From positions 67,473,554 to 67,537,553 of the forward strand of contig OX485803.1 in assembly GCA_950295325.1 (NCBI GenBank): a stretch of DNA of 64,000 nucleotides, written 5' to 3'. Within the stretch, counting starts at the first letter, position 1. The number at the start of each line of letters is the position of its first letter. The notes beneath the pieces are model-generated. The model had not been told where the DNA came from, made no database searches, and was given only the letters and a program-made list of their open reading frames with translations. This DNA comes from Polytrichum commune. Lineage: Eukaryota > Streptophyta > Polytrichopsida > Polytrichales > Polytrichaceae. Both the position numbers and the translations under genes were made by a program. Below are positions 39,716 to 60,779 of the stretch, piece by piece.

Positions 39716-40208
39716 AGGAAGTTTGCTTGGTTCCATTAGAGATAACCATTAGTTCATTAAACCAATATAGTGGTTGAAGCGTGAGGAGAAAACTACAATA
39801 AGTGACAAGTATTTATCAATACTTAAACTTGTGTAATTCATGGAATCAATAAGCGAGAACTCATGTAGTAGTGTGGAGTCGACGGCAAAGACTCGCTTCA
39901 TAAGAGGGATATCTTTGAAGGCATGCGTGACCAAAGCGGCCATGTGGACTTTAGAGAAGTACAAGGATGTGACATTACCCAAGATTAAGGAGTGTAAGAA
40001 GACATAGTATAGACTTGGCTAAGTTGTGTATATTCCAACGATAGATTGGAATCATACATTGTGTTACAAAGAGAGAAATCTCTACATGTCATTATAAACT
40101 TCTCCATTCGGGCTAGGACGAAATTGAAGGGTGGAGGCTTTTTGATGACAGGTGCCCACCACGGGAGTTCATCCGTGGATACCAAGGATTGAGCAATGCA
40201 TATTCAAT

Positions 40209-42530
40209 CTACAGGCCTTCTATTGATACCCCATCCGAGTCAAATTGATCTCCACCGGTCATATATTCACCTCTTGTGCATCGATCTAAATTATCCTTTG
40301 CGAAAAGAATTTGCATCGCTGGGATGACCACATTGTCATCGGACGCATTCTTCTGTCTTGCCCATCATGCCACAACACAATCTAGATATTGACAAATTGG
40401 AGCATATTCTATGAGCCTCGTCCATCTAAAAGGTTTTGCCGTGTCCCATTCCTCATAACGTTCATCCAAGGTCTTCTTGTTCATTGTGCCAATGACAAGT
40501 ACATAATACACAATCTCAATGGAACGAGCATGAAGACCGACATGTGCCAAATTAGGCTCGGAAATCACTCGTCCCATCTAGACTGGATTAACACAATCCT
40601 CACTAGGACGTAGTAAGACATAATGGCCGACCCTGATATGTGCACCAGGACAAAAGGTCTCAGGGGGTCGAGAACTTGCTGGTCCGACATAAGCATAGCC
40701 AGTGATGTTTTCCTCAAATAGATGCACATTGTCGACATGTAGGGCAGTTGCAATGGAGAACCGTGTAGAAGGCCAAAAGGGCTCGCTAAGTTCAGATGGA
40801 GTTGGGGATAAAAGATGATCCATAGCCACAAGCATATTCTCCCAATATAAAATTGTTGGCGCAATGGACTCCATATATTGACCGGAACTATCTTGATCTA
40901 CCGTATCCTTCCAATACTTAATAAAACCTTTCAATCCAAGCTTTATGTTCACGGAATCTTTCATCTTCCTTTTTGGAACGGCACGGGCACAACCTACAAA
41001 AACAAACATACATTGAGCTTAGGGCAAAACCATGGACTAACGGCCCATGAGTGATCACCCGGGGGCCACGTACATCACACCTTGTATTTTCTAGTGCACT
41101 TCCTAAGCAATACGAACCAGACACCCACTAACCTGGTGGGAACATGGTTTTCTTTGTGACAGGGTCCACATTCTATAGAGCAATTCCTCCTTTTGGCGCC
41201 CAACTTGGATTTGTACAAAACACTTTATATTGGATCAATGGCACTCCTTGAGGGTCTACATAAAAACGGAATTGGTGTGCCTTGGAATGCCTTATAAGTC
41301 GGTCTTGACCAAACTCATGGTAGTATCCCTTCACTCATTCCTTGAAATCAACAACCTCATGAATCAAGGACGGGACAATAGTGGGATCCCCAGCTTCCAT
41401 GAACGATGCCATGAGGTCTAGGAGTGTATGACAATCCTCAATCTTCAACCTTTGTCCAAACCGGCTGAACATTGCATCCACATCCTCATGCGTATGTCCA
41501 ACAATAAGGAAAGAAACCCGGACTTCACGAAAGATTCCCTTTGTGGTCATAGCATACCAAAACAACATGTTGTTTTTTGATTTGTTATCCTTTGCACAAT
41601 TGTCCATCTTAATAAGCAAGAGGTATGGCAACCCCGTAGGTGGAATAATTTCGGGCGGTGGCATTGGAAGTGTTTTTGAACACTTCTCTATGCCAACCAC
41701 TAGTGCATCGTGCAAAGGGTCACCTATGGAAGAAACATGAATGTGTTGACTGTAGCAGACATGCGGGACCTCAAGTTGACAAAGCAACCTCATGATGGAT
41801 GTGATAGTGAAGTTTTCATCGGATGAGTACATATCAAGAACATAATGTGCATAATTCACATTAGAGTGACCATGCGCAATCATCCCTGCAATGGATATTA
41901 GGAAACGCTCATATTTGTCAACACGTTTGTTTTTGTGCACAAAAACAAAAAGCGCCGTTTTCCCATAATCCATTTTGTCATGGATGATAGAAAAGACCTC
42001 TTTCGGAGAATACTTTGACAAGATCCTATCTTTATAGTAGTTGTTTCTATGAGCTTCTTGCAATGCTAAATGCCGATGGCTAGCCTTCGAGATGGCCAAG
42101 TACCCAATAGTTTTTTTTTTTGTGTATTCGCAACAAATCCTTGAAAGTTGCGCAAGTTCTACAACGCGAGAAGTTGTCGCCAGGGCTCTTCACAACATAT
42201 TGCTTGAAATGTTGTCGATGTAAGTGGCTAAAACTTGACATTGAGACAGGCGTGTACCCGAGGTCTTTGTCCAAGTTGTTTACTTCCTCCAGTAGGTTGG
42301 ACCAAGTTGTTCCCACATGGAGCATCTCCGTACCTATCTTTTTACCAGTTGGAAGAGTCCAAGTCATATGGGGCATGGAGTCCGCTCTACCCTCAATGAA
42401 TACTCCAAAAGTCGCTTGTGCCTGCATTGTATTCGCCCTTGGCTTTCTGGTTCTTGTATTTCCATGATCTCGAGATCTGACCCCATCAAGTTGTCGGCCT
42501 TGTTCCTATTAAATTGTGCCCCTTGATATC
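40209..42530 (-). pseudogene. Decayed DUF7869-like mobile-element gene, copy 1
   Basis: This is homologous over most of its length to the gene at 55688-58824, in the opposite orientation. Pieces in order are ADSMPHMTWTLPTGKK (42427-42080), then 42099-41335 with SIIHDKMDYGKTALF, GMIAHGHSNV, IKMDNCAKDNKSKNN and SFLIVGHTHEDVDAMFSRFG, then 41009-40578 with FIKYWKD and YVGPASSRPPETF, then 40577-40209 with AKPFRWTRLIEYAPI and a C-terminal stop at 40209-40211. Breaks include a frameshift beside a poly-T run (about 42109-42121), a stop after VVDFKE and a stop in the final segment. The core residues (DN of MDNC, HTHEDVD) persist. The 5' part beyond 42530 is not recognisable. Confidence 0.82.
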
Positions 42531-44128
42531 ATATAGATGTTAACCATTCACAAATGCAAATTGTTCTTCCTTCCACAACAACCGTTTCCCTACCGTTGTG
42601 CTCTTGTTTCTGGATCGTTTGAAACATTGTAAGGGCAATAAGTTCCGAGCATTGAATGGCAAGGCAAAGTAGTGTTCCCGAATACTAATCAACAAAGGCC
42701 TTGGATCTCGGGGAGGTGACTATCGGAATTTTTAAAAACCACGTGAGATAAAAAAATAAGGTCAATTTAATTCGTTGAGGGTAAATTTTATAAATTCGTT
42801 AGATCTACCATAGCATTGGAAATATGTCCCCTACATGATTATATGTAAAATAGGGTGGTGAATAATTCCTCCATTTTAGAGTTCTGTAGAAAACAAAATA
42901 GGGTCATAGATATTGGACTCCCCCAAATGTGTGTAGTAAGATCAATAGAATAATTATGGATTTGACTACGTAAATGAATATTGTGTGAATTCTATCCAAA
43001 TTTGAATGAAACGCGTTAGTATGGTAGGAAATGTTGTGGATTTTATTGGGGGAAGGAATGTTGTGACTTCTCAATAGCCCTTGGGCTTGCTTAGGGTTTG
43101 GGCAAGCATAGTGGCGTGAAGGCGGTGAAGCGTTCAGGTAGAAGGTCTTGCATTGGTAAAGTGTGAAACAATGAAGCGGCACAAAGACAGTAGGTAAGAC
43201 ACATTTTTTGGAGTTTTTTTCTTAGCTCCATAGCATTCACACAGGGTGTTTCACGAGAACCGAAGATTTGGCTTGCTCCGCTCTCGCGCAGTAAAAGTCG
43301 ATTTCAAACTCCAACTCCTTGATTTTCCCCTTCCACTGACCAATTTTCGACAACATGCTATTGATTTCCGACACCCTCCTAAATGTGAGATATAGAAAGA
43401 TGAATATTTACAAGACCTGAATGTGAGTATAGAAATATGAGATGTTGATGATTACATCAATGCTTCATATTCTACAGAATGAATGTTGTTGGATCTTAAG
43501 ATGGATTGTGGAGTGTATTTTATGCAGAGAAGTACGACAACTGTTTCATCTACAGTTAAATCAATTGTTAAAAAGACTAGGGAAAAACCTTCTAAAATTT
43601 TGTAAACTACACGTAATCTCAATGGAGTTGACCAGGGCATGTGGTGTATATAACGAGTTTAGAAAACGAGACGGAAGCTTATACAAGGTGGGGAAGTTGC
43701 AAGCATTCCATTGACCTTCTTAATCAAACACTATATTCGGTAATTGGAGACTTTTTGTTGATTATGAGACTATATAAGGATGCACATTTCAAAATTGGAC
43801 CAGTAATGACGACTAAAAATCCCATATGTATAATGGTATGCTACTATTATTATACATAAAGGCATGAAAGTGAACAAAAATGTGAGGCATACATGAAAAT
43901 AGTTACGTATGAAATGACAACTTGTTATGAATGGAAGGGAAGATGCGAAGAATGAATGGAAGTTGAATGAATTAATTGGGATTGAAATACAATTATAATG
44001 GAAATACCATCAATGTCTTGAGTAACTTGGAATAGCATAGAAAGTAAGCACTTAAATATGTTCTACACCTAAGCCCATTTAGGGAGTCCGTCCCACTAAT
44101 ACGCTTCTAGTCACACTAGTCCGACCCA
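42531..44128. other. Gene-free stretch
   Basis: AT-rich with short ORFs. The 5' remains of copy 1 may extend here but are not recognisable. I see no palindromes of the type found at 46-55 kb. Confidence 0.35.
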
Positions 44129-44145
44129 CTATTTTTTTTTTGCGG

Positions 44146-45099
44146 CTAAGTCCTTTTTTTTGGCGGCCTCCATGGCTCTAAAAATCTCAGGCCCACGACT
44201 GTATCCTTGTGTGTTGCCTGGACAGGAATATGTGTTGTTCTTGAATGTTTCAGGACACGCTCCCGAATTGTACGAGGTGGTATTATAAGTAGAATACGAG
44301 GGCGTTTGCGAAAGGGAACGTCTTGCGCTTCTTCGGAGGGCCAGACAACTATCGGACTCGGAAGATGCGGCCTTGAGGGCGTGCCTATCCAAGGAGGACG
44401 TGGAGGAGGGCCGGGCACCAAGCAAGCGGGTAGCCACCTGCGAAACAACGTCATAGGAAGAGAAGAATGGGAATAGAGTGGGGAAAATAATGAGGGCGGT
44501 TTGGGATGGGCGCTTGTAAAGAGAACGGCATGCACACGGAAGACAAGCAAAGCAAAAGCGGGAAAGGGGTTTAGGGTTGAGGAGGGCACCTTGGCTTTGG
44601 GGACGTCCATGCGGGGAACGGTGGGAACGAGGGGGGCGTCGACGGGAGCATCCGGAGCCGATGGAACTATTGCACTGTTGGATGGCGGGGGGGAGTCGAG
44701 GCCTGGAGGGCCCACGATCGCGGAGGACGTTGCAGGGGGAGGAACGGAGTCGGCGGGGGCAAAGTCCATGCGGAGACGCCGGCTCGGCCCATGACGAGTG
44801 ACGCCGTCGTCCCTAGAGGGCGAGAGGTGCCCCAAACGAACGAGCGTCCATTTCTCCTTGGAGAGGGGGGAGGGCGACGGGGCGTAGGCGCGGGCGACAA
44901 GTGCGGGGGGCGGGCTGTTGACGACACCGTCGTCGATGCTGACGTCGCGGGAGTAATCCACGGCCGAGGCCGCGTCGACCGCCGAGAAGTGGTAGAGGGA
45001 TGGCATTTGGGAGTCCGTGACGTCGCGGGAAGGGGAGGCAGGGGGCGAGAGGGGACGGGAAGGGCCGTCGACCACGGGGGCGTCGCATATTGGGGCAGA
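44146..45099 (-). CDS. Pro/Ser-rich low-complexity ORF, uncertain
   Basis: A GC-rich frame of about 318 codons, open from a possible acceptor (TTGCCCATAG|TCTGCC, 45100) to a stop at 44146, with no ATG near its start. It is rich in Pro, Ser and Arg (for example PLSPPASPSRDV, DSPPPSNSAIVPSAPDAP) and disordered, with no domain. The matching antisense frames are also open because of the GC-rich composition, so coding is not certain. It could be a downstream exon of the phosphatase-like gene beside it (a donor such as AAT|GTATTC lies near that ORF's end) or a separate gene. A GTT-rich simple repeat lies at 45108-45150 in the would-be intron. Confidence 0.35.
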   Translation of the reverse strand, partial: SAPICDAPVVDGPSRPLSPPASPSRDVTDSQMPSLYHFSAVDAASAVDYSRDVSIDDGVVNSPPPALVARAYAPSPSPLSKEKWTLVRLGHLSPSRDDGVTRHGPSRRLRMDFAPADSVPPPATSSAIVGPPGLDSPPPSNSAIVPSAPDAPVDAPLVPTVPRMDVPKAKVPSSTLNPFPAFALLVFRVHAVLFTSAHPKPPSLFSPLYSHSSLPMTLFRRWLPACLVPGPPPRPPWIGTPSRPHLPSPIVVWPSEEAQDVPFRKRPRILLIIPPRTIRERVLKHSRTTHIPVQATHKDTVVGLRFLEPWRPPKKRT

Positions 45100-45212
45100 C
45101 TATGGGCAAGAACAACAAAAACAACAACAATCACAACAACAAAAGACATCCAAAACAGAGCAAGCATTAGATATGTGAACCACACGATAACAAGCAAAGA
45201 CATGGAGGAATT

Positions 45213-45967
45213 TCAAATCAATTTATTGAGTTTAGCGAGCCTCATGATGCTCTTGAATACATTATCACGGGGGCTTAAACCCACATTGCCGATGGGGTTG
45301 GACCTAACAAAAAATGGTATGCTACCGGCGTGGACAACAAGCCTTCTAAGGTAAGGCGCTAGCGTATCGACCAAAAACGTGTCGTTCCTATCGCCGGTCC
45401 AAGTGGCGGGGAAGATGACGTTCCCCGGGGGGTTCAAGACGCTTTTGGTGGGGCTGTCATCGACGAGGACGGTGTTCTCGGGGGTCAGCCACCACCCGTG
45501 GGGTACCCCCTGCAACCGGGGGATGCCCCGCCACAGTACTCTTGACCTCAGGACCTTGAGGAATTGTTGTCCTCCGCCACGACCGCCGAACTTTGGAACC
45601 GGCATACCTTTTTCGTCAAGCAATTCATCGCAATCCTCTTGGCCGAGGATGAGGCAAGGGCTCAGAAGATCGCGGAAGAGGAAGTCGACGATTGGCTCGG
45701 TGTTCTCCATGACCATGGAGCTCCACACAATGACGTGAGCTACATCGAGCACCTCTCGAAGGAAGTCACGCAGACCGGGACGGGTGCGAACATCCTTGCG
45801 GTTAATGAGCGTGTCGAGCTCTCCGTCGTAGTCCCTTTCGTCGGGGTGACGGAAGGGACGCGTGGGGACCCGGGGGATGTGTTCGGTGTGACACAACACC
45901 CCATTTAGATCGAACACGACGAACGGTTTGTTTCGGGTAAGACGTCCACTGGTCGAGGGTTTCCGAC
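45213..45967 (-). CDS. FCP1/SCP-like HAD phosphatase domain ORF, 5' end unresolved
   Basis: It resembles the FCP1 homology (NIF) domain of CTD-type phosphatases in the HAD superfamily, which dephosphorylate Ser/Thr residues using an Asp nucleophile. Motif I is FVVFDLNGVLCHT, motif II is HVIVWSSM, and motif IV is NTVLVDDSPTKS. The nucleophile Asp is present, but the second Asp of canonical DxDGT is Asn, so the general acid/base is changed. There is no ATG before motif I: the frame opens after a stop at 45990 and a possible acceptor lies at 45968, so an upstream exon is missing or the copy is truncated. It sits in the palindrome-bearing region, on the same strand as the three-exon gene, and may be cargo of the same element. 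Confidence 0.68.
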
Positions 45968-46097
45968 CTATCTCCGGGGGATCATGTGATTAACAACTCG
46001 ACTAGTTTAATTCTATGATCCAATAAATAACATTGCATCAAGGAAAAGACGATTATGCGAGGAAAATAATGCTAGGAGAATGTGGTCAAGTGCAGAC

Positions 46098-46209
46098 TTG
46101 CGAACGAGCGTTCGTGAATGAAGGCTGGGGTGGCGCATCATTTACGAACGCTCGTTCGTGAAGGAGGTGGACAGATGGTCGCACCCTTTTACGAACGGGC
46201 GCTCGTTAA
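46098..46209. repeat. Three 22 bp palindromes, intergenic
   Basis: Copies of the palindrome (arms TTTACGAACG and CGTTCGTAAA around two free bases) lie at 46098-46118 (centre AG), 46141-46162 (centre CT) and 46187-46209 (degenerate). They sit between the phosphatase-like ORF and the three-exon gene. Confidence 0.93.
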
Positions 46210-46519
46210 TGAGGTGGGTGTGAAAGTGTAATGATGCGCATGAACATACATAATACAAGATGCGCTACGATACAATAAGTTTGGGAGATGCGACGCAGAG
46301 ATCATCTGCTCATATATTAATTCGGTGAATATTTACAATTGTCTCACGTGATAATTTTTCACAGTTTCCTATGGCAAATACATGCCGTGTTCTACAAAAT
46401 TTATCGGGCTAAGGGTCAAAATTTATTGGGCTAAGGGTCCACGTAGAGAAGGGTCCTCGCACGCCTCGTGATGCTGATGGACAGGAACCGCCAAGAACAC
46501 AACGCGCATGGGTTAGTGG

Positions 46520-46645
46520 TTACGAACGCGCGTTCATCAAATGAGTGGTATTCTCAGAGGAGAGTTACCTCGTCATCGGGGGGAGGGGCAGCGGCGCTGG
46601 ACCGAGCAGTTCCCTCCTCTTCGATTAACGAACGCGCGTTCGTAT
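46520..46645. repeat. Two 22 bp palindromes at the 3' end of the three-exon gene
   Basis: Copies at 46520-46540 and 46625-46645, both with centre CG. The second overlaps the end of the ORF: it encodes RTRVR and its outer TTAA supplies the TAA stop on the minus strand (46625-46627). Confidence 0.93.
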
Positions 46646-47017
46646 CCCCATTGGGCCAGCCGCCTCTGTCTCCATGGCATCTGTGGCACGCTCCGACTGT
46701 GACGCTTGGGTCTGCACAATGTGGTCCGCGTCGTCGTCGTCGTCTCCGGCCAGGTCAAGAGTGTCCATGCGGACATCCTCCATCTCCGCGGATGGATGTC
46801 GTCCCAAGTCAGGGCTCTCAACGTCCATTCCTTGGACAGCTGCCGCGTCATTGGGGCTCCCCTGCGTTTCCTCCACAATGACCATGTCAGTGTGTTGTGC
46901 AGATTCATCGGCCTGCCTATCCACTACCCTCGGGACGACTGTCAAAGAGGCGGTGTCAGTAACTGAGGCCAGTCCTACCCTTGGAGGGGGAGGGGTTAGG
47001 ACTGCCGGACCTGAGGA

Positions 47018-47039
47018 TTCACGAACGCGCGTTCGTAAA
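47018..47039. repeat. 22 bp palindrome inside coding exon 3
   Basis: A full copy with centre CG lies in the middle of exon 3 of the three-exon gene. It is read in frame as LRTRVRES in a disordered Pro-rich region, without a stop. Confidence 0.93.
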
Positions 47040-48050
47040 TCTTCGTCCTCGCGTATGGCAGCCCTTATCGCATCGTGGGAGTTGGCGGGGGTGGCAGTCA
47101 TTTGAGGGGGCGGAGGACTCCCAGCTGGCGTTGGGTGTGGTGCTGGTGGGTGCGAAGGTCCTCCGGGGAACATGCCTGGAGGGGGGGAATGGGAGGGGTA
47201 TCCTCCGGGGAAGGGGTAAGGTTGTTGTGCTGGCGCCGAGAAGCTCTGCATATTTCTGAGCATCTCAAATATGGCGTCCGTCTTTGCTGCGGACTCCCGC
47301 AGCGCCTCCTGCATGCGGGCCATATTTCTTGCACTCTCCTCTGCCGCAGCCGCCATTTCCTCCTTCATTTTTTGCTCTAGCTTGGCATTCAACTCGGCAA
47401 CTGTCAGCGCCTCCTCCTTCACCCGCTTGTTCTTGTCGTAATCGACCCCCAGCTCCGCCATGATGTCCATGTCCCCCTCGTCCTCGTCGGACACCTCGAT
47501 GATTGCTCCCTCAGGCAACTCCACGTACGGCGTCTTCTTCATCCTCCTCCTCATGTTTCGGAAGAGGTCCAAGGATGGACGCGAGCATTGGTCGAGGAGG
47601 TCGAGGGTCTCCATCCTCGGAACAACGACGGGCCTTGGAGATACTGAAGTCGAGCAGCCTCCAGGCGTGCCGAAGGGTTCCGCACCAGACACTCTTGCGG
47701 GGAGGACATCCTGGGTGGCACCCGCCGAGGATCCAGTACATCCAGCCGGGGTCCCTTGGTATTCCGAAGGCTCCCCCGATGGGGCCAACAACCGGAGAGG
47801 AGTGACATCCAAAGCCTGGAGGATGGCATCGACGTTGACGGAGGGGCTAGGCTCGTCGTCGTCTGTTTCCATGGGAGGCATGCCTTCGTCGGCCTGCATG
47901 TTGAAGTCCATTCTGGGCACGGATATGTCAGCTAGGTCCATCGTCGACGCTTTTGTCCTATGGAACTTGTAATCCTCCTCGTCGACGGCGTCAACGTATG
48001 TGTTCACGCACAGCCCCAGCATCTGAGATACAAAGGCAAAGATTCAGTCA

Positions 48051-48072
48051 TATACGAACGCGCGTTCGTAAA
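48051..48072. repeat. 22 bp palindrome, acceptor side of intron 2
   Basis: Centre CG. It lies 28 bp upstream of the exon 3 acceptor on the minus strand, near where a branch point would be. Confidence 0.93.
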
Positions 48073-48167
48073 CATAAAGGCTTCGAGCGAGGAAATATTA
48101 ACAAAATAATTCACAAAACAATCATAAGTATCGGTTGCCCATGATAAATTGTTTGGAGCATGCAGTG

Positions 48168-48189
48168 TTTACGAACGAGCGTTCGTAAA
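48168..48189. repeat. 22 bp palindrome, donor side of intron 2
   Basis: A perfect copy with centre AG, 20 bp downstream of the exon 2 donor on the minus strand. Confidence 0.95.
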
Positions 48190-49569
48190 AAGTGGTGTGA
48201 GATGGCTTACCATGGCCGAGTATATAAATTTGCTGCCCCCAAATACGTTGTAGACAGTCTCGCCAGTCATCGCCAAACCCTGCAATATGGAGATGTAGAA
48301 CTCCATCCTCAGCTCCAGCGCTGGGAAGACAGTGTACAAAGTCTCCTGGAAGAGATCCTTTGGAGGTGGGTGAGGGATGCTGTATATCTTCTTGAATGTG
48401 TTGTTCGTCTTTATGGGTGCTCACCCATTCCTAAGCGCATTGTACGTCAAGAAGATGAGGCTCACCGCTCCCACCTGCTTGTTGCCTCTGGCCTCGTTTA
48501 CGGCAACAATCCCCTCCGTCTTCGCTGGCACGTATGTGCTGTGGAAGATGCTGTACTCGAACTTGATCTTGTTCTCATACAAATCGATGACGTCGGATTG
48601 CTTCTCCTACTCCACAATCCACAGCCATACGTGCGGCTCCCTCATGGTCGGAGATTTGTGCTCCATGAATTTCGCCATGAAAGGGTTGTAAAAAGGCTCC
48701 CCCTTCATGCCCTGTCGCGAGGCACCGGGGATCCCTCTGAAGTCGATGACCGCGAAGGGACAACCCCTTCGATCCTCCCTGACCTCGGACCTGCTGAAGG
48801 TGCCATCCCACTTGGAAAACGTGGTCCTCTCCAGCCCCGTGGTCACCACACAAAATCTGGCAACGCCCTCGAATGTGGCATTACGCTTCCTCTCCAAGAA
48901 GGAGATGTACCGCTGCAGCTCCTCGGGTTCTGTCTCGGTCTTCTTGGCCCTCTTATTGCCCTTGAATTTCAGAACGGCAATGTGCTCTTTCACTAGGCTT
49001 CGCATTGAGGCCCCGTTGATGTTGTAACGCGACTTGAACACCTTCCAATTGGCCCAGTTGATGTCGCCGTCGGCAAGGAAGAGGTGCATCTCTGGCACGA
49101 GAGCGCTAAGCTCTCGCATCGCAGATGTCTTCATCTTCCTATGCTCACACCACTCTTTGATGGAGTATGTTCCGGGCTTATGCTTGGGCCTCTTCAAAAA
49201 AATCTTGGGATATGGGATTGTTCTCCCAACTGTGTTCCCAAGTACATGAACCGCGCAACGCTGAAGTTCGGACTCCGTGAGTCCTTGCAGGGACCTGAAA
49301 AACTCCCTTAGGAGTGGAGGGGCCTCTCCGGTCTTGTCCGAGCTGTATTTCTCCTCGGTGTCGGGGTTCACGAGATCGCCCGAGCTATGCGCGTCAAAAA
49401 ATTGGGTCCACAACTCCCAAGTGTCCCTGTTGCAGCAGATGAGACGGAACTCACCCTTCAGCTCAAGTACTGACTTTGTGGTGGTGGACTTCATATCGAT
49501 AGAGGAAAATTTGTCCACCATCGCATCGCAAAATGCCTACAATGCGAAACAAATGTCAGTGTTGCTCTA

Positions 49570-49591
49570 AATACGAACGCACGTTCGTGAA
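49570..49591. repeat. 22 bp palindrome, acceptor side of intron 1
   Basis: Centre CA, 33 bp upstream of the exon 2 acceptor on the minus strand. Confidence 0.93.
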
Positions 49592-49633
49592 ATGGAAACT
49601 TCATGAAAAATAGAAAATTGAAATGCAGTGACT

Positions 49634-49655
49634 TTTACGAACGTTCGTTCGTAAA
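49634..49655. repeat. 22 bp palindrome, donor side of intron 1
   Basis: A perfect copy with centre TT, starting 5 bp after the exon 1 donor on the minus strand. Confidence 0.95.
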
Positions 49656-50987
49656 CATACCTTCCACTGAGGAGACTAGGTCTTCGCATTCTCTCTTTCT
49701 TTTGGTGGGCAACCATGTGCCACCCAGACATCTCGTGCAGCCACTATGTTTGCTGCCCAGGACGCCTCAAACGCCTTTATCTTATTGCCGGAGTTCAAGA
49801 AAGTTGAAATCTTTCGGAGCTTGTCCCAGTCGTCAGACCACACCAAGAAGGCCTTCCAGTAGCGCAGGTCCGCCTTCGGTTCATGCTGGAAGTTATCGTC
49901 CTTCAGGATGAGCTGCGACGCCTCTAGGCTGTGCTGTCCATCTATGATCCAGAACTCACCATTCTGGATCCGGGGCCAATCTTTCTCAGTCGGACGGGAC
50001 GTGAAGCCCTTCGGCATCACGCAAACGGTCTGCCTGTCCCACTTGACGTTGTTCATCAAATTGTTAATTTGCCACTTGACACCCCCGCTCTCACGAGACC
50101 TCACCACCCACTTGTTTGGCGATTTCTCGCACTTGAAGCAATCAACGTTGAATGTAAAGTGCCTCCCCATGGGCCAGCAATCCTTTGAGTAAGTGTTGAA
50201 GTCTCTCAGGATTCTGGTAGCCTTCACGGCGTCCGGGTTTTCTCCCTTCTTCAAAGGAATTGGTATAACGGGAGGCGAGCTCACCTCCGCCGTCTCTGTT
50301 ACACCCGATTTTTCCAAGTCATCCCTTGTCCTTTTGGATGGCGTGGACTGTCTGTTGGGCCCGTCCGTCCCCCGGCTCACGGATGGCACAGGCCGGGGTG
50401 CACTTCTCGAACCTCCTGCCCCGGACACAGAAGGTTTTCTAGGACTCTTCTTCTTCTTGTTCGCCTCGGCGACCACACTGTTATACTTGGAGATGTTTAA
50501 AGCCAAGGCAGTTAACTTTCTGGCTGTCCAGTACTGGCTCAAAGCGTACTTTGTGAAGTGATTCTGCAGGTTGAAATGCTTGGCCTCTTCTCCCACGGTC
50601 AGAATGGCGTAATTGTGGGAGAAGGAGTGCTCCATGTAGTGCAAGAGGAGGTTGATGTGGTCCTTCTTGTTTTTCATATCCAAAATGACGTAATCCCCCT
50701 GGGCCTCTATTGACTCTATTTCCCATGTCTTCATCTGCACCCATTGTTCTGGCTGGTCCGGGCTCGTCTCCAGCTCGTAGGTGAAGCGCAGGACAAAAAG
50801 ACCGTCTTCGGTTTTCTCTGGCAGCGCTGTCCACTCCCCCATGAAGTCAATCTTTGGGACGTAATTGTCATTGTCGTTTGTATCCGACACTGACTGTGGC
50901 AGGCTGTCCACCTTCACTGCGAACATCTCGATGGCACTCCTGGTTGATCTAGCCATCTGCACAATGATGTACACTTTTAGTGAAGTA

Positions 50988-51009
50988 TTTACGAACATTC
51001 GTTCGTGAG
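50988..51009. repeat. 22 bp palindrome just upstream of exon 1
   Basis: Centre TT, 31 bp before the CAG|ATG that opens exon 1 on the minus strand. This is the same distance as from the acceptors of exons 2 and 3, so an upstream leader intron may exist. Confidence 0.9.
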
Positions 51010-51099
51010 TGGTACAACTAGGCCGCAGACAATGTTGTTTGCATTGTTGGTTTGGTTGTATAACATTTCATATATTTGATCTAGAGGCCTTTGATCATA

Positions 51100-51433
51100 T
51101 TTACGAACGATCGTTCGTAAATAGTTGTTGGTCGGTTTAATTTACATTTCACGTTTTTACGAACGTGCGTTCGTAAGATTGATATTTGGTTTGAATGATT
51201 TCACAGTAGTGTGTTTATCACTGACAGTATGTTGGTGTATGTTGTTTTGTATCGTATATTACAAATGAGCGTTCGTAAAGTTTTGAATTTGTGTTGTGGG
51301 TGAAGGGTATTTACGAACGCGCATTCGTAAAACTCCTTCGCATGGGCTTTGGGTACGGGTATTTACGAACGAGCGTTCGTAAAAATGGTTGGGTTAGGCA
51401 ATGCATTCGCATTTACGAACGCACGTTCGTAAA
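51100..51433. repeat. Regularly spaced palindrome array (~51 bp pitch)
   Basis: Copies start at 51100 (perfect, centre AT), 51157 (TG), 51259 (right half only), 51310 (CG), 51362 (AG) and 51412 (CA). From 51157 on, the starts step by 102, 51, 52 and 50 bp, so one slot (about 51208) is empty. Spacers of about 28-30 bp resemble one another loosely (TTTGGGT, GGTTGGGTTAGG). This is the 5' side of the three-exon gene. Confidence 0.93.
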
Positions 51434-52149
51434 TGTGGTTGGTTTGGCTGTTCACATATTGTCCGTACATATACGGTTTCGTATATATACAAATACATAT
51501 AGGGTAGAATGTGCTTATTCATGTGTAGAATGCTTGCAAGTGCGTGGTCAGAACGATTGAATTGAACAAAAAATAAAAAACACAACATATCTGAGCTTCA
51601 GAATGATTAGCAAAGCTCAGATTGCATGCAAAACCTGCCAAGGCTCACCTTTCAAACAATGCCAAAGGAAATCTACAATGAACCAATTCAGGATGTGGGT
51701 TGTGAGGCAAGTTGGATGGAATGTACTCACATTGAAGTGTTCCTTGACAAAAATTGGTTCTCCCTTGCTGAAAAAACCACACAACAACACACAAATCTAC
51801 AATGCATGTTGTTGAAATGCACTCTTGCACCACTCATTCCTTCACCACACTTTCAAGGCCTCATTCTTTATGTACAAACCCTAGCGCCTAATCTGGTGCA
51901 GCTACAAGCTTCAAGCTTCAAGCTTTCAAATCCCAATATTCAAACTGCAGGTGAGTCTACTAGCGCTCTTGCAACCCTCAAGCTCCCTATTCACAATAAG
52001 TCACCTCTCAAGCGAAATATGCAACTCAAACACAACTTCAAGCAAAGTAAAACAAGGCAGACTACAATCCGGCAGAGCTTCGCTTCGAATATTCTAAGTT
52101 CTCCTCTCCTCCTCCTCTCTGTTCCAAATGAGATTGAGGAGAAGTGAGA

Positions 52150-52323
52150 AGGGCCGCGGGGTGGTGGCCGGCGCCGTTAGGGTTTACCCTTGGCTGCCAC
52201 GTGGCGTTCTGCCAATGGCGACGGCCCAATGCCGTCCTTTCATTGGCGACGCTCCACGTGGGGGGATGGGGGGATGGGGGGAAATGCAATTGGAGATGGA
52301 TGTAGATGTAATGAAGGGGGGGG
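52150..52323. promoter_or_regulatory. GC island with G-boxes and G-quadruplex motif
   Basis: A palindromic G-box GCCACGTGGC lies at 52196-52205 and a second CCACGTGG at 52254-52261. CCAAT and ATTGG pairs lie between them. Then come G-runs of six at 52260-52265, 52268-52273 and 52276-52281, with a run of eight at 52316-52323. Each feature is visible directly. A promoter for a transcript on either strand is inferred only. Confidence 0.5.
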
Positions 52324-52517
52324 TGTAAAACATGTGTATATGTATTATATGTAATGGAAGCATTAATCACATTAACTTAAAGAACTTAGTATGAAGACAT
52401 GAATTTTGATTACCGTATGCCCTTAGTACATTTACTATTAGATTCCTTGTAAACATATTTTCAAAACAGCCTTAAGTTAATTCGTATTGCACAATATATG
52501 CATTTTGTGCGATTGCG

Positions 52518-53010
52518 ATGAAGAATCCACCCCCAAGGATGTGTATATGGTGTTCTACAGTATAGAGTTTTCATGAACGAGATAACTTTAAGATTGAACC
52601 GTCGTTCTTCAGGTATATATGACATAGTACTTAAAGGACCCAATTTGAGATTGTTTAGAGGCCCTATTCACTTATTTACAAGAGGTGGAGGAAAACTCAA
52701 TCTCCAATAGGACGTCAATTGAATCATTTAATTGGGCGTCAACTTGAACTAAAAATTGTACAGTGCATTGAACTTTAGTTTTCAACAATGATGGGATTGC
52801 ATTTAACCAATGAGCCATATGGTCAGATATCTCGCTAGCATCAAATGTATGGAATAGGTTTCCAACGAAGAACACACCCCTAAGGATGTGTATATGATGT
52901 TTTCAAATAATATACAGTTTTCGTAAACAATATAATATCTTTCAATTCGAACCATGGTTTTTCAAATCACTATTACATTCATAAAAGACCAATTTGAGAT
53001 TGTGTAGAGA
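52518..53010. repeat. Diverged direct repeat, two ~145 bp copies
   Basis: Segments 52518-52662 and 52866-53010 share AAGGATGTGTATATG, a GTTTTC(A/G)T block and CAATTTGAGATTGT(G/T)TAGAG, 348 bp apart. AT-rich and non-coding. Confidence 0.75.
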
Positions 53011-53112
53011 GGGTATCATCAACTTTGAGCTTGCATAAATTAAGTTAGTGCAGTACGGGTTTTTAGGAGTCAATATTGTTTGTGTGTGTGTGTAATGTAT
53101 CGTACTAATGAC

Positions 53113-53157
53113 AAAACCCTAAACCCTAATACACAACTATCACAAACCCTAAACCTT
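53113..53157. repeat. Short interstitial telomere-like repeats
   Basis: Two pairs of CCCTAAA units (ACCCTAAACCCTAA, then ACCCTAAACC). Similar short tracts occur at 18231-18247. They are too short to suggest a chromosome end. Confidence 0.7.
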
Positions 53158-53756
53158 GCATCCCTACATTTTTTTTATACCATGCCAATTGTTATTTTGA
53201 GATTCAACATTAATAGATTTCGGGGAAAGCTTTGGTTTGGGCGAAAAGTGAGTGTTGAAATGCTCCATCTTCCCCCTTAATACTCTTCAGTGCTATTTGA
53301 TCACATAATCCAAACATGGGATCATTATAACATGCATGTCTTAAGACTATACTATAACTCAACACTTTTATCTAATACAAGCATCCACATACTTCTGACA
53401 GGATGTAAAACACATAATTTTAAGTGTGACTTGTCATAAGTATGGTTTCATTTCTTATGATTACTCTATCATATTGATCATTCCAACTTAATTAAACATT
53501 TCCACACATGCTATTTTAATTCATTATTCCTATACCTATGGTTACATTTGAATTTAGTCCTAACTTACATCTAGTTACAATTAGATTCATATTATCCTCA
53601 ATCTACCCTAGTACAAGCCATTATGGATTAACCCATCTTTTTAATGGTTTTCACACACTTGTGAGCATATTACGGGCGTGATTCGATGTGAATCATATGA
53701 GCATTCCTATAATTTTAGGGGCCTCCACAACTTGTTTTTAATTGAGTTTACCTTAG

Positions 53757-53791
<35 letters not shown>

Positions 53792-54301
53792 ATCACATTC
53801 ATTCATAACATATATTAGGTTTCCATTGTCAATTAACTTGGACTTCACAACTTGGTCGCAAATCATTTAATATTCTATATTGACCAGCATCATATTCTGA
53901 TATTCTGTATTTATTATATACATATTTATATTCATGAGACCTTGGTAACACCTAAGGTTTGCGACCGATTTACATATTTTCAATATCAAGTTGCGTGCAT
54001 GCAATACAGGTTCCTTACATAATGCTATTTAATATATAATTGCGCATGGATGGAATGACATACTGGTAGGTCAAAGTAGGCGGCGGGAATCGGCTTTTTT
54101 AAGAGCATCCAAGGAATTTTGAACCATCGTAGACAAGTACTTAAAGCTCTTCCCCCCACTGCAAAGCTCTTTTCTGCGGCACACGCCGGGTGCGCTCCAG
54201 AGACCCGACGGAGCTCGCGGAAGGCATTTTCGTGTGCGCCAACCCCCACCTCCCAGGTACACGACAACCTTCACACCCGCATATACCGCCGTAAATACCG
54301 G

Positions 54302-54920
54302 GATTTTACGAACGCGCGTTCGTAAAGCACACAATCTGGCACATATATAAATGGGTCTGATAGATGATGGTGGGTAGTTTACGAACGCACGTTCGTAAGT
54401 ACCGTATAAGCAGTCCGAGTTCAGAGACCTATAGATACACGTGCACATGGGTAGTCACAGGCAGTGCATATGGATAGGCATATTCATATTGTAGATGTCA
54501 TTGATATACGAACGCGCGTTCGTAAATATGTACACCAGCCTCATAGAAATGTATACCTGTAGTTCAACCATTTTCCAGTTCTCTCCACAAGCGCGCATAT
54601 AGGATGGACGGGTATTTACGAACGTGCGTTCGTAAATCACACGATCTGGCACATATATAAATGGGTCTGATAGATGATGGTGGGTAGTTTACGAACACAC
54701 GTTCGTAAGTACCGTATAAGCAGTCCGATTTCAGAGACCTATAGATACACGTGCACATGGGTAGTCACAGGCAGTGCATATGGATAGGCATATTCATATT
54801 GTAGATGTCATTGATATACGAACGCGCGTTCGTAAATATGTACACCAGCCTCATACAAATGTGTACTTGTAATTCGACCATTTTCCAGTTCTCTCCATAA
54901 GCATATAGGATGGACGGGTA
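54302..54920. repeat. Tandem duplication, ~310 bp unit, with palindromes
   Basis: Units 54302-54611 and 54612-54920 are nearly identical (for example GGCACATATATAAATGGGTC and ATACACGTGCACATGGGTAG in both). Each carries three palindromes at the same places: 54305, 54378 and 54505 in unit 1; 54615, 54688 and 54815 in unit 2. Another starts the next block at 54921. The centres match or differ by one step between units (CG/TG, CA/CA, CG/CG), so the duplication is recent. Confidence 0.92.
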
Positions 54921-55550
54921 TTTACGAACGCGCGTTCGTAAAAGCCACATGGGATTATTGTGCACGCAGGCATCACCATCACTGATTGTTTCTGGACTTT
55001 CAATATGACAGTTATATGCGAACAAACGTTCGTTTTTCCTCACGGCCATTTCAAACGTATACTCGTAGATTCATCAAATTTCCGAACGTTCGTTCGTAAA
55101 TACAACCTGGGACTATGTTTGCCGCATCCGATATTTTACTTAGAGACAAACATTGCTGCATGTAACCCCACAGTAGGGCAGAGAACTTACGGACGCACGT
55201 TCGTAAATATGACGTTCACTGATTTTCAAGTGAACGCCGGGATGTGGTACCTGTCATTTGCCATGACAGACAGGGTGGCATGTCTTCAGGTATCGTATGG
55301 CCTGAATTATTGGAATTGCGCCAGGTCCAAGTGTGATTTACGTATATTGTTTTGGGAAGAGCTTACGAACGGTTGTTCGTATATTTAACCTGTCCTTGGT
55401 TGGTGTGCTATCCTCGCTATGGTTGTGCAAACCATATGATCACCCTTCACGAATGATATATATCACAATTTGCTGTCGGTGTCAATTGCCATGGGATTTC
55501 CATGCAGTGTTTCCATGTCTTGGTATTCTTTTCGAACGTGCGTTCGTCTA
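54921..55550. repeat. Palindrome cluster upstream of the DUF7869-like gene
   Basis: Copies at 54921-54942 (perfect, CG), 55015-55034 (degenerate), 55079-55100 (TT), 55186-55207 (CA), 55362-55383 (degenerate) and 55529-55550 (TG). The last ends about 140 bp before the start codon of the gene at 55688. Together with the tandem duplication they put 12 palindromes in the 1.4 kb 5' flank. Confidence 0.9.
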
Positions 55551-55687
55551 TTTTTGTGGAGCCTTCCGTTGGTGCCCTTACAGTTGTTTGAGTTCTGGGC
55601 CATATATTTGGACATCTAATTTGCGCGCTCTTCTGAACATTGCGATGGTTTTTGTTTGTTTAGGTGTTGGTGGTTTGTTTAGGGACA

Positions 55688-58600
55688 ATGGAGATGCATT
55701 TGGGAGATATTTCATTGGAGTTGTCTACTAATGCATCGTCCGCCGATAGTGAATGCAAACTATCTTTCACGTCGGTGGATGGTACTGACGTTACAAACGT
55801 GGTGGGGGTGCCTGTGGATGCATCCCTTGATCAGACATTTGAAGGGCTCGAACAATCTCTACATTCCGGGGATGACCACGGTGACATTCCGTTGTCTGCA
55901 GGTTTTGGAAGAGAGCAATGGGTAGGCCTTGATGTTGTTCTACTTAACGACCTTGGGGTACCGGTGGCAAATGGCATATGTCGAAATTCCGATCCCCGTG
56001 ATTGTATTGATGCCAACCCCCTCGGTGACGACGATGTTGGTGTTTGCATCTTGAATTCTTTGCTTCCACTTGAGGTTCCGGTGACATGGAGATTTTCCTT
56101 GCGTCGATGGCCCCTTCGTCGAGTTCTACATGAAGAAGTAAGTTTGTGGAATCATGGGCGGCGGCACAAACAAACGCAATCAATTTTGTTGGCCAAATTA
56201 CCTCCTCGCAAAGGCCTTCGCAGATATGATTCTAACCGCGTGCCTCGCGGTGATAAGGAGCGACGACGGGATCGCATATTGGGAGACGATTCTATCCGTC
56301 TCGTGTCCGCCAAGGACTGTTGCGCGAGGAGATGTTGCCAATTTTTTCCTCGCGAAAACATTAGGTCTCTTTGTGTAGAGATGTGGCTTGCCGATTTCCG
56401 TATGAGATCGGCAAAGAAACTCGAGGTCCACAGAAATGTGCACATTGACACCCATGGGCACAAGGTGGTCACACTAGAGAATGTGGAAGTGTGTTGTACC
56501 GCGTGGTATACCATCCATGCCGTGTCAAAGTCTGATTTTTATAGGTTTCAAAAGTATTCATCGTTGGGTCGCCGCTCTCGATTTCATGGAAATTTGGGCA
56601 CAAAGAAACCTCGGGAGGCTACACTCCAAGCCTCGGCGACACTCTCCACGATCATAGTGCCATTGGCCGATGCAATGCCCCACAAGACGAGGACATTGTC
56701 ATCAGGGGAGAAAGTTGTTCAAATGGTGTTGCCCACGGGCACAAAATGGAAGAACATATTAACGGACATCAACGAAGTGGGTCGCATAGCGGGATGTGAG
56801 CCCATTTCTTTGTCCAAATTGAGTGTAATTAAAAACCAACAGTTTGCGGAATACATTTTGAAGAGACCCGGAGACAAGTTCGCTAGGTGTACGACGTGTG
56901 AAAAATACAAAGGTCTTCGAGACGCCCACCCCATAGGCACTGAATCTCATACCAGACACCAGACAAAATATATTGAGCATGTCAACAACCAAGAGGCACA
57001 CCGTCAAGATTACTACAAAAATCGTGCTCTATCTATAATGAGGCCCACAGAGGTTCTAACAGTTATCCATGATAAAATGGACCACGCTAAGACCGCATGC
57101 CCTTGTTATGCACACAAAATAAAGGCCACGGATGGTCTTTTCAAGTTGCCCGTGGTTGTCACATGTTCGTATGAAATCACAACGACGTGTTCAAAGTCTA
57201 TCAAATTTTCTTGAGTGTGTTTGGCAAATGTTCAACTCCATACATCCATTTAGTAGTTATTCCATTTCATCCAATTTTGTTCACGCATCGTTTGTTTTTT
57301 TCAGGTATGATTGCGCATGGCCATGGGGATGTTAAGTATACCCATTATGGTTTGGATTTTTACCCTGGAGATGCTAACCACACGGTGGGTTCATTTGCAA
57401 GACTCTTGCGCGATCTTGAGCAGCCACCGGTACATTCCTCCCGTGCACTTTTTGATGGTTGTGGAACGACACCCCTTTATGAGGCAGTGCTTGTGGGTAA
57501 GGAGGTTTGTATGTCGTCATTACGGGAACCACCTAGAGAACCCATTTGTGCAAAACCATTGCCTCCAACTCTCCACGTTCAACTAGATAATTGTGCGAAG
57601 GACAACAAATGTCGATACGTATTTTGTTTTTGGTCATTGCTCGTGGCAAAAAGAATCTTCAAAGAGGTGTTTGTATCTTTCTTGATGGTGGGACACACAC
57701 ATGACGACATTGATGCGTCATTTGGCCGTTGGAGCATGAAGTTGCATGAGGAAGATTTTCCGACAATACCACTTCTTATGAAATCATATATGGATTTAGA
57801 CCATATGCCGGTGATACCGCACATGATTGAGGAAGTACCAAATTTCAAGGCCTTCATCAAGCCATACATGTTGAAGGGAGTGGACCGTTTGGTGGGATAT
57901 ACCAAAGCACAACAATTCCGATTTTATATGAGGGATGATGGTGTCCCGGCCATGCAGTTCAAGCTTTTGTGCACATCTCCTAATTGGGGCCCGGATGATG
58001 GTATACTCGTATGGCGTCAAGACAAGGATGGGAAATGTTTGGTCCCAGATGGGGAACCAAAGCCTTGCAAACCCGAACCCATGAGGAATGGGCCGGAAAT
58101 CATCAAAGGCATATCCGGATTCATTGAATATTGGAAAGAGTTGTGCGAGGAGGACATCACAAGACGTGTTAGAGATACCCATGAACCGTTGAACGCGTAT
58201 TTGGATCGCATTCGCTCAGCCTTGATGACACTTGGTGGCGACACCCGTACGACTTTGACACAAGGATTTTGGCCACAAAGTCGTTTGACAGTTGTTGAGT
58301 CCGATACTATGTTTTTCAGCAATGGAGACGTTCGTGAAGAGTTCGCAATGGACGAGCATTACGTTGGCCCTGCCCGCAATCGACCGGCACCGTCGTTTCG
58401 TGTAGGTGTTGATTGCTATGAAGGTTATTTGGTCCTCGTACGAGCAGGGGATGAGGAGCATCCCAAGCCAATTTGGTTGGTAAAAACATTGTCTTCACCC
58501 AATTTTGTTCGAACTAGCCCCAACTTTCGTCAAATTGAGGTGAAATATTGTCGTCCAAGCACTAAAGACCAGAACGTGCTCCGCACTTATTTAGGTTGGG

Positions 58601-58824
58601 ACACCAAAAAGAATTTTAAGTGGACAGTGGACTCAGCGTACGCACCGGTTTGGATAAACACGGATACTATACTTTGTGCTTGGAAGCCGCGCAAAGGTTC
58701 CAACACAGAAACAATGACCATCCCCCAAAAACATATAGATTTTGCCAAAAACAACTTGGCACGTATTGCAGCTGCGGAAAATGACGCCGAGAATGGATAT
58801 GAAGCGGAAGATGGAGATGGGTAA
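55688..58824 (+). CDS. Intact DUF7869-like mobile-element protein (2 exons)
   Basis: Exon 1 (55688-57164) and exon 2 (57305-58824) join through a 140 bp GT-AG intron to about 998 aa with no lesion. The function is unproven. The family (DUF7869-like) occurs in many transposon-like copies in plants and other eukaryotes. N-terminal 200 residues are acidic. Then come a Cys cluster DCCARRCCQFF (Cys211-217), a second Cys pair RCTTCEKY (Cys401, 404), HDKMDHAKT (Asp462/465), LHVQLDNCAKDNK (Asp587) and SFLMVGHTHDDIDASFGRW (623-629), and an acidic tail. The spaced Asp residues recall an RNase H-fold transposase core; this is inference. ATG 55688 is the first in frame. A reading frame continues upstream to an acceptor-like TTTAG at 55663, so a leader exon is possible. 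Relatives lie at 40209-42530 and 60780-61329, and 12 palindromes lie upstream. Confidence 0.82.
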
Positions 58825-60779
58825 ACATAACATAGGTGAAAGTTAACGGCGGGAAAAAATATTAATGCTTAGTAGTCTTGGTTTTTAATAGACTTAGTAG
58901 ACTTGTCACACTCCATTGTGGTATACGTTTGGGATGTGCCATCCAAAACCATAAGAACCTTACTTATGGGATGCGCACCCCAAACTCTATAATGACATAA
59001 ACCATTTGTTTTTTAGATTCGCTTGTTATTTTCTACATGGAGTTCACGTTTTCATTATAATTGCAATTTTCTATTTTTAGCATTAAGAATATTCTTTACG
59101 TGCGAATTTTTAAATTGTCATGTTCTTGATGTTCCCAACATTCCATATGCCCACAATATTGGCATCCCAAACTATGGGCATATTTTATTTTGAGACTTTC
59201 AAAAGTCTCCGATTAACGAATATAGTGTTATCAAAAGGTGAACAATGATTAAAAAAAACAAGTATTGTTATATCTGGTTTTATGGTTAATCTTTATTATT
59301 TAAAAAAATCCTTGGATACTTCAAATTCAAATATGACCACTCAAATTTTATTTGGGTTGATGTAGATAGTGTAATTTGCACAATCACTATGTCATTTGAT
59401 GTAGAGAGGGATGTCTTTGAGCTTGATCCGGTTGAAGGAAACTCTTTAAATGAATTTGTTCAAAAACCTACATGAAATTAATAACAATGTAGGATATTGG
59501 TTGTGACCCCATACCCATATCACAAAATGATTAATTATCTTTCTAGTGTACAAATTATGAATGATTGGTGTAGAAAATGTTTTCTAAGTTAGTAGGTGTT
59601 ATTTAATCTATGAAGTTCTCTTGCTTCATTCAAAGATATCGTTTATTAATGAGCATTGGATGGTTGAAGTGATAAGCATGTATTAGACTTTTCAAATACA
59701 TGAAGATGATGAGTTAACTTTCAATCCAAATTCGGAGGAAACTAGGTACTATGTTTTCCTAAACCTTGAATTTGCACATTTTCTTATTGTTTGGTCTTGT
59801 ATAGATTTTTGAATGAGCATGTTCAATTCCCTAAATTTAAAAACCTAGTTTTCAAGCCATGAAATTATGAAAATTAAGGTTGGCTTGTGGTTCATTTTTC
59901 ATCAGTTTTTGTTGTTCTCTTATTTGTTTTTCTAGTAGTGTCCAATATGCCAACATTCTATTGATTGCATTTTTGCTACAACTACCTTTTGTACATGATC
60001 GATGGTGCGCTACAACATTTGGCAACCTCACCGTGGTAGATTCAGAGGATTACGCTTTGCCTTGGAGGAAGACATTGTGGAGTGGTTGGAAACTTTAAAA
60101 GTCATCCGCCTCATGCCAACAATTAATTTTAATCATTTCTCATGATTGGTTTTAAACCTCTCAAATTTTTTAGTCTAATCATGACATTGTAGAGGATATT
60201 GACATGTACCCTGACATTTATTGGGAGGTGCATAGTTATATCCTAACCCTCCATATTGTAAATATTTGGTACAAGGTTGAATGTGTTTGTGAACATAATT
60301 AATGGAAATGTTTTAAATTTTTGTATTTAGCTTTCTTTCATTTGAATGCAATTTTTAATTTTTGGAGTAGATAGTTGTGCAAAATGTCATATATTGTGAT
60401 TGTATTTCTTGTTTTTTTCTATCTGCGTTTACAACTTGTCTATATTAGCTTGTACATTTTGTTATCTCCATATTGTTTGGTAACCTTTTAATTAGTATCC
60501 AAATGCTATTGGTTGTGTCTTAAATGGCACATTGAATGGTTTAGTATTGGTATACCTAATTGAGACTGATTAAATGACAAGATGGATGATATGGAATGTT
60601 TGTTGCTCACATAGTCGATTTTGCAATGCTATAGATTTCCGTTCATTATTTGATACTTATATGATTTATAAAAAAAAATGGTGCCAAAAATTAACCTCTC
60701 TAAACAATTACAAGTAAAAATAGGGTGCTAAAAAATAAGTCAAAATAGCTTTATATCTACAAATAGGGAGGGAAAAAGT
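58825..60779. other. Gene-free AT-rich stretch
   Basis: Very AT-rich, with no ORF carrying a known domain. It separates the intact DUF7869-like gene from an inverted fragment of a relative. No palindromes seen. Confidence 0.4.

Follow-up and report, generated by a model that had tools for sequence, protein, structure and literature searches.

Introduction

Sequence-specific transposon anti-silencing is described, in the accessible text of two reports, for the VANDAL elements of Arabidopsis, where the short motifs bound by VANC proteins recur in noncoding tandem repeats, both within introns and ahead of VANA, and proteins and motifs evolve together (PMC5735166, PMC10398659). From Ectocarpus, the available sections of a further paper present Sola1-1_Ec32, a giant DNA transposon of 21.5 kb in which an accessory gene runs on the other strand from the transposase; the product of this gene harbors ParB-like and amino-methyltransferase domains and was suggested to bind the transposon that encodes it and to modify it (PMC12477816). 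The Sola superfamily, according to excerpts of three papers, is hallmarked by 4-bp target duplications and inverted ends, includes members of over 15 kb and is present in the moss Physcomitrella (PMC10741241, PMC3627910, PMC9033089). Herein, a stretch of 64,000 nucleotides from Polytrichum commune (GenBank assembly GCA_950295325.1, contig OX485803.1, positions 67,473,554 to 67,537,553, forward strand), termed the window, is analysed, in which a 22-bp palindrome recurs throughout the interior of a 15.5-kb DNA transposon carrying a DUF7869 gene, the presumed transposase, and a divergent gene called DGQH.

These palindromes very probably constitute a self-recognition code that is read by a protein of the element, and the DGQH protein is likely to be that reader; an anti-silencing role, suggested by analogy, is given even odds. 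The favoured reading as a whole, that family-private palindromes would be read by an element protein, probably DGQH, against silencing, is assigned a probability of roughly 0.55 and is drawn from sequence comparison.

As far as the open text of the VANDAL reports portrays that system, the moss element resembles it in being a DNA transposon with genes beyond the transposase, and its family-specific motif likewise occupies noncoding regions, introns and the region upstream of the transposase gene. In both, the arrays change together, and related families bear different motifs and diverged proteins; motif and encoded protein were found here to diverge jointly among 14 proteins, with shared descent not corrected. 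VANDALs are Mutator-like, whereas the present element has a DUF7869 transposase and 4-bp duplications and is not assigned to that group. In contrast with the 9-base motif attributed to VANC in the accessible text, the motif here is a 22-bp two-fold palindrome with a free centre, and DGQH is compared with VANC in its proposed role. With Sola1-1_Ec32, as partly accessible, the element shares giant size and an accessory gene opposite the transposase; unlike the Ectocarpus product, DGQH has a methyltransferase part that is at best degenerate, and its ParB-like link is the DGQH motif alone. Palindromic sites are a further difference, no binding sites being described for Sola1-1_Ec32 in the sections available (PMC12477816). 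The likeness to Sola elements, as the excerpts characterize them, consists in the 4-bp duplications (12 of 16 copies), the inverted ends (about 30 bp, 90% matched) and a length above 15 kb, and the element may be a member of that superfamily. No mention of DUF7869 was found, and among listed titles and abstract openings no description of palindromes of this kind was recognised, in a literature search outside which most subscription papers lay.

The palindrome and its host transposon

The window pattern TTTACGAACGNNCGTTCGTAAA, composed of a 10-bp arm, two free bases and a second 10-bp arm, was found at 28 sites with at most 3 mismatches, all between 46097 and 55550, with zero in the remainder of the window and zero in 100 dinucleotide shuffles. 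A degenerate palindrome at 55015, with 6 mismatches, brings the number to the 29 copies reported in the initial annotation, which had also correctly stated that none lies elsewhere in the window. The centre, described there as variable, is indeed free, since all 16 dinucleotides occur among 166 sites of the family (family I) to which the window element belongs. Tandem Repeats Finder (TRF) detected no tandem array of the palindrome unit in the window, only a 310-bp duplication carrying a few copies, so that identity with a known satellite or simple repeat is not indicated; there was also no Rfam match. Of the 28 sites, 26 lie beyond open reading frames (ORFs), which occupy 7,958 of the 15,503 bp of the element (p 8e-7).

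Comparison with near-identical copies on contigs C5, C3 and C1 reveals that the carrier of the palindromes is a DNA transposon at 43727 to 59229; the originally given extent, 46098 to 55550, describes the palindrome cluster, while the element itself is wider. The three copies measure 16.1 kb and are mutually 99.3-99.5% identical, and the end segments of the window element are collinear with them at 92% (3.6 kb) and 91% (2.5 kb) identity. The termini read AACACT...AGTGTT, and the inverted repeat that they form is imperfect and about 30 bp long. Target duplications, whose examination had been proposed for the palindromes, were tested at the element ends: a perfect 4-bp duplication flanks 5 of 6 copies in a first set and 7 of 10 in a second, the exceptions being C1:5765316, L014, L016 and L018. 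Genome-wide, 412 left and 440 right ends were counted at no more than 3 mismatches (controls 0); among the matches listed, 100 per end, there are 45 left-right pairs within 40 kb, 25 of which span 16.05-16.53 kb.

The 18-bp palindrome core, allowing one mismatch, occurs at 6,957 sites in the genome, compared with 14 for a reversed control, and the sites are clustered. Pattern searches are reported here for the first 100 matches and protein searches for the best-scored candidates. Among the 100 core matches listed, all on C1, seven clusters were recognised, every one located in copies or derivatives of this DUF7869/DGQH element (six assigned by BLAST, one by a DGQH match together with a right end). 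The suggestion that the repeat belongs to this locus is accordingly upheld in one respect, as it is bound to its gene set and is not genomic background, and revised in another, since it resides in a high-copy transposon with thousands of sites and not at a single locus. One 9.5-kb copy, C1:639070-648560, possesses both ends, a CATA duplication and 46 sites at no more than 4 mismatches, while BLASTN matched none of the DGQH exons in it and its ORFs of at least 110 amino acids included no recognised DGQH or DUF7869 protein.

The features of the window element are as follows (positions in the window; a strand is given where one applies).

43723 to 43726, plus strand: left target-site duplication ATCA, 4 bp, read at the element border
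43727 to 59229: family-I DNA transposon, 15.5 kb, ends AACACTATATTCG..., from alignment to copies elsewhere in the genome
43727 to 43757, plus strand: left terminal inverted repeat, about 30 bp, 90% matched in copy A
45213 to 45989, minus strand: NIF / NLI-interacting-factor-like (CTD-type) phosphatase ORF (Pfam PF03031, E 5.5e-16)
46097 to 46540: 4 palindromes between the DGQH gene and the NIF ORF, upstream of the phosphatase
46625 to 48022, minus strand: DGQH exon 3, hydrophilic; an ORF with splice borders read by eye (inferred)
46625 to 47039: 2 palindromes within the exon-3 ORF, at 46625 and 47018
48023 to 48210, minus strand: intron 2 with 2 palindromes (48051, 48168)
48211 to 49536, minus strand: DGQH exon 2, an ORF with inferred borders whose frame closes at 48607 in the window copy; possible degenerate amino-methyltransferase domain
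49537 to 49660, minus strand: intron 1 with 2 palindromes (49570, 49634)
49661 to 50956, minus strand: DGQH exon 1 with the motif WIIDGQHS, an ORF with inferred borders
50988 to 51433: 7 palindromes 5' of the DGQH gene
51471 to 54284: gene-poor core of 2.8 kb without palindromes, between two divergent promoters
54305 to 55550: 11 palindromes 5' of the DUF7869 gene, partly within the 310-bp duplication
55664 to 58824, plus strand: DUF7869 gene, presumed transposase, two ORFs (Pfam PF25273, E 5.1e-40)
59199 to 59229, minus strand: right terminal inverted repeat
59230 to 59233, plus strand: right target-site duplication ATCA, 4 bp, read at the element border

In intron 1, both palindromes are retained in all four alignable family-I copies (seven sources were tried, three of which yielded no intron), and the other intron sequence is hardly alignable. 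The palindrome-free core is partly conserved among element copies. Apart from DUF7869, no Pfam family scored above its cut-off in the transposase ORFs of the window, and a pattern-based scan of IMG/VR disclosed no relatives of the DUF7869 ORF. Families I, II and IIIb share the NIF ORF as a third gene, at 31-36% pairwise identity; no match was found in family III within the 19.8 kb examined, a stretch that may end short of the gene. Elsewhere in the window, tandem arrays of 97-bp and 116/237-bp units (225-514 and 5920-6716) and a 508-bp direct duplication (15269-15773 with 29181-29688) are unrelated to the palindromes.

Related families with their own arms

Further transposon families were identified starting from a second DUF7869 fragment in the window. 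Eight arm types of the 10-2-10 form were recognised in the genome; every type has an element group and a DGQH protein of its own. For the five families sampled at length, the left arm is given below (the right arm, beyond two free bases, is its complement) together with the number of sites in the own family at no more than 4 mismatches.

Family I: TTTACGAACG, 28 sites
Family II: CCCACGGGTG, 21 sites
Family III: CTTTCACTCG, 20 sites
Family IIIb: TTTCCTCTCG/CTTCCTCTCG, 14 sites
Family IV: GTTTGGGTCG, 25 sites

When each motif was counted in the sequences of the other four families at the same threshold, all values were zero, save that the sister motif III was counted 9 times in the IIIb sequence; the arm types had been read from the loci first and then used for assignment, and the assignment table is descriptive. 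Beside the free centre stands CG in seven arm types and TG in the eighth, that of family II. The 18-bp cores of families II, IV and III are found genome-wide at 1,246 (control 6), 12,615 (control 2) and 295 (control 2) sites, respectively.

Two family-II sites occur in the first 43 kb of the window because a family-II remnant lies there. A remnant of a family-II type DUF7869 transposon spans 40158-42505 and 61761-62183, flanking the family-I element: degenerate family-II palindromes are located at 40158 and 41044, the DUF7869 remnant at 41335-42505, and IIb-like palindromes at 61761-62161, past the family-I element. As degenerate palindromes of family-II or IIb-like type lie on either side, the family-I element is probably nested within an old element of family-II type.

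In all five families sampled at length, the 5' regions of both the transposase and the DGQH gene contain sites, as does the end of exon 1, a part read as intron 1. Such promoter-proximal positions might be expected if the transposon had captured the binding sites of a host transcription factor; eight arm types, each bound to one element group and separated by one- or two-letter steps between sister families, make this origin very unlikely. The densest arrays, directly 5' of the two divergent genes, would also suit plain operators, with DGQH or another element protein acting as an autoregulator (repressor or activator) that has no anti-silencing role. Sites are situated as well in introns, in the stretch separating the DGQH gene from the NIF gene and in the long arrays of the DGQH-less copy, and the arrays of about 15 sites in families III and IV go far beyond the need of an operator, so that this explanation is regarded as rather unlikely.

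Stepwise change of the code

The comparison of 16 further stretches around DGQH exon 1 demonstrated that arms and protein change together in small steps. Four copies 81-93% identical to the family-II protein keep CCCACGGGTG, and two at 70-73% carry CCCACGGGCG in both arms, an example of the one or two letters by which sister families differ. In clade III, a 90% copy keeps CTTTCACTCG, four at 61-64% carry CTTCCACTCG, two at 58-59% (one of them IIIb) carry CTTCCTCTCG, and two at 56-59% carry GTTCCTCTCG; the family-I arm is kept in L059, L060 and the clade-I copies. Expressed as identity of DGQH exon 1, the arms are unchanged at 78-93%, altered in one or two letters at 63-75%, and in two or three letters at 58%. 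A Mantel test over 14 exon-1 proteins, with shared descent not corrected, related protein distance to half-site mismatches with a Spearman coefficient of 0.835, a value reached in none of 5000 permutations; the stop-bearing copies L045, L048, L049, L052, L057, L058, L059 and IIIb were omitted, as were L060 and the family-I copies B, C, L002 and L003.

The change is largely concerted across an element and symmetric between arms. In one IIb element, where the two arrays are about 12 kb apart, IIb-type sites make up 8 of 8 in the array preceding the transposase gene and 11 of 13 in the array preceding the DGQH gene, and in the distant array of a IIIe element five of six sites are of its own type. 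Two-fold symmetry, a free centre, letters kept within a family, mostly symmetric changes and element-wide concert all argue for a dimer encoded by the element. The initial annotation had ascribed the form of the repeat to a homodimeric DNA-binding protein; symmetric arms with a free centre do fit a two-fold symmetric binder, and binding itself is here proposed from sequence. Within family I, arm positions 1-3 are the most variable, and of the 43 changes that affect the four CpG letters of the arm, 42 are C>T or G>A. As these look like methylation-driven decay, the pattern hints that some family-I copies are CG-methylated.

The DGQH gene and the candidate reader

The DGQH gene is divergent from the DUF7869 gene, and its three-exon structure is a reading of frames. 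Exon 2, closed early at 48607 in the window copy, is open elsewhere in the genome; many exon copies are stop-free, judged on the best 92 of 1,083 candidates for exon 1 and the best 128 of 1,066 for exon 2. DGQH diverges faster than the transposase (58% versus 84% identity between III and IIIb; 87% versus 95% between the window and copy A), and this, together with the analogy to the Ectocarpus accessory protein, makes it the likeliest reader of the palindromes.

A competing explanation is that the transposase binds the palindromes, or that they are transposition enhancers, serving excision rather than expression. CACTA elements provide a precedent, as their subterminal repeats act as transposition enhancers; the sites are element-specific and retained in the copy without DGQH exons, and the DUF7869 protein co-diverges with the palindromes too. 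Against this, full copies carry their sites in the interior, with none in the end regions (in copy A the distances to the nearer ends are 2.4 and 3.9 kb), and the introns of DGQH bear sites too. Moreover, the III and IIIb transposases share 84% over 628 amino acids, yet their arms differ in two letters and their DGQH exons 1 are 58% identical. Recognition by the transposase is hence considered unlikely, and DGQH is preferred as the reader.

A sub-threshold PF01555 (N4/N6 amino-methyltransferase) match in one of two relatives from another organism suggests that the second exon is methyltransferase-like, at best in degenerate form: the best match, near the C-terminus of L064, reached E 0.033 and 14.6 bits against a cut-off of 26.7, and L063 gave none. 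No PF01555 match above cut-off was obtained in three genome exon-2 proteins, in that of the window, or in L063 or L064, and an hhalign comparison of exon 2 with one methyltransferase was negative. An hhalign comparison with one DUF262 protein aligned only 29 columns around the DGQH motif (P-value 0.0028, probability 11%).

Several candidate relationships were rejected. PADLOC matches to CARF (exon 1, E 0.0014) and HamA (exon 3, E 0.0019) were weak and taken as chance, as were weak Pfam/NCBIfam matches of exon 3. A viral origin was dismissed after an IMG/VR pattern scan for the DGQH domain, in which none of 154 pattern matches was confirmed, and the search for prokaryotic relatives returned merely non-significant phage and plasmid matches (E 0.6 and 1). 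The PF01555 locus C1:9662150 was discarded as a relative on account of its other gene neighbourhood, which is without a repeated 10-2-10 palindrome. The surrounding stretch L061 (C1:9657500-9665500) holds a repeated gene set with an N4/N6 methyltransferase-like ORF of 577 amino acids, likewise without repeated 10-2-10 palindromes, and 577-aa frames lie further at C4:44111740 and C5:16865322. Strong N4/N6 methyltransferase matches on contigs C10 and C12 (98.5, 68 and 55 bits) possibly represent bacterial contamination.

A second organism

Scanning GTDB contigs with the DGQH alignment yielded three loci (L063, L064 and L065) in one metagenome bin with a cyanobacterial label, 'uncultured Synechococcales AVDCRST_MAG81'; all three carry the same exon-like frames. 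We infer that they are stray eukaryotic contigs with transposon pieces, the bin probably being contaminated. The palindrome is ATTCAGCTCG NNN CGAGCTGAAT in L063 and L064 (5 sites each at no more than 4 mismatches) and TTTATCCTCG NNN CGAGGATAAA in L065 (5 sites), with zero cross matches between the two. The centre in all three comprises three bases (10-3-10), beside DGQH-like genes. Sites are found 5' of exon 1 in L063 and L065 (the L064 stretch begins too near exon 1 to show them); all three loci have sites where exon 1 ends, and L063 and L064 also where exon 2 ends.

Proposed mechanism and its weighing

In the favoured mechanism, the palindromes would serve a large DNA transposon as cis-acting recognition sites. 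Each transposon family would encode a two-fold symmetric DNA-binding protein whose subunits read the half-sites across the free 2-bp centre, with most weight on the inner 7 of the 10 bp in an arm. The reader, most plausibly the DGQH gene product, would bind in the transposase and DGQH promoters, within the introns of DGQH and ahead of the phosphatase gene, and would thereby mark the control regions of the element and most likely keep them transcribed against host silencing. Such action would proceed in trans on all copies of the same family, including those without these genes.

Several observations weigh against this mechanism. All parts of the element diverge together, so co-divergence alone cannot favour DGQH over the transposase or the phosphatase. 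The DGQH protein gave no Pfam or NCBIfam match above curated cut-offs and no PDB match better than E 0.1, and AF2 (AlphaFold2) predictions of its domain were of low confidence, with mean predicted local distance difference test (pLDDT) scores of 37 and 40 (alone and with three relatives). A 9.7-kb derivative with broken DUF7869 parts and a NIF ORF retains only 5 sites. Strict symmetry is broken in L051 and L052, in many of whose sites a CCTCTCG half faces a CCTCGCG-type half, and strict concert in L046 and L047, where two arm types are mixed (7+4 and 6+3). In the IIIc element, the arm is GATCCACTCG 5' of the transposase gene versus CTTCCACTCG 5' of the DGQH gene; the inner seven letters are alike and the outer three differ, which is consistent with the variability in family I. 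This IIIc array 5' of the transposase gene (L067) gave 0 sites with the eight arm types, and its GATCCACTCG sites came from a free palindrome scan. Lastly, among the 166 family-I sites, 14 identical two-arm changes were counted against a shuffled mean of 5.1 (none of 2000 shuffles reached 14), an excess that a hairpin would also give.

This excess and the inverted symmetry are what selection for RNA or DNA hairpin structure would produce, an explanation considered together with that of a tiny mobile or satellite repeat. The same sites show 158 one-arm changes and 3 differing two-arm changes, and the letters themselves are kept inside the family; compensatory change in two arms does not cleanly separate protein from hairpin. 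Given further the position mostly outside ORFs and the negative TRF and Rfam results, both forms of this explanation appear scarcely credible, and recognition by an element protein is preferred.

A bolder extension may be drawn from bacterial ParB-parS, in which short palindromes are read by a dimeric protein with a DGQH-like motif. DGQH, linked to ParB by this motif alone, might be a eukaryotic counterpart, a dimeric clamp that loads at the family palindromes, spreads and shields the element from silencing. The dead methyltransferase-like domain and the CTD-type phosphatase would then be accessory parts, and divergence of the palindrome code would give each family private trans-activation. 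Tens of sites per element, in contrast with a few parS, set the two systems apart, no significant homology was found for the DGQH protein, and a search for the ParB/sulfiredoxin-like (DGQHR) family furnished no relevant Pfam, NCBIfam or PDB match; this analogy is held to be speculative and improbable. If true, it would explain how a few short sites could govern 16 kb.

Implications

Should the favoured reading hold, these elements would be a second, apparently unrelated transposon lineage with VANDAL logic, which would suggest that the strategy arose more than once. They would offer eight protein-code pairs in one genome and two in another organism, with clean two-fold palindromes, and a series of proteins and targets in single-letter steps for studying the joint change of DNA specificity and 10 to 25 dispersed sites. 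Meanwhile, the palindromes may indicate candidate binding sites for the ParB-like accessory proteins of algal giant transposons.

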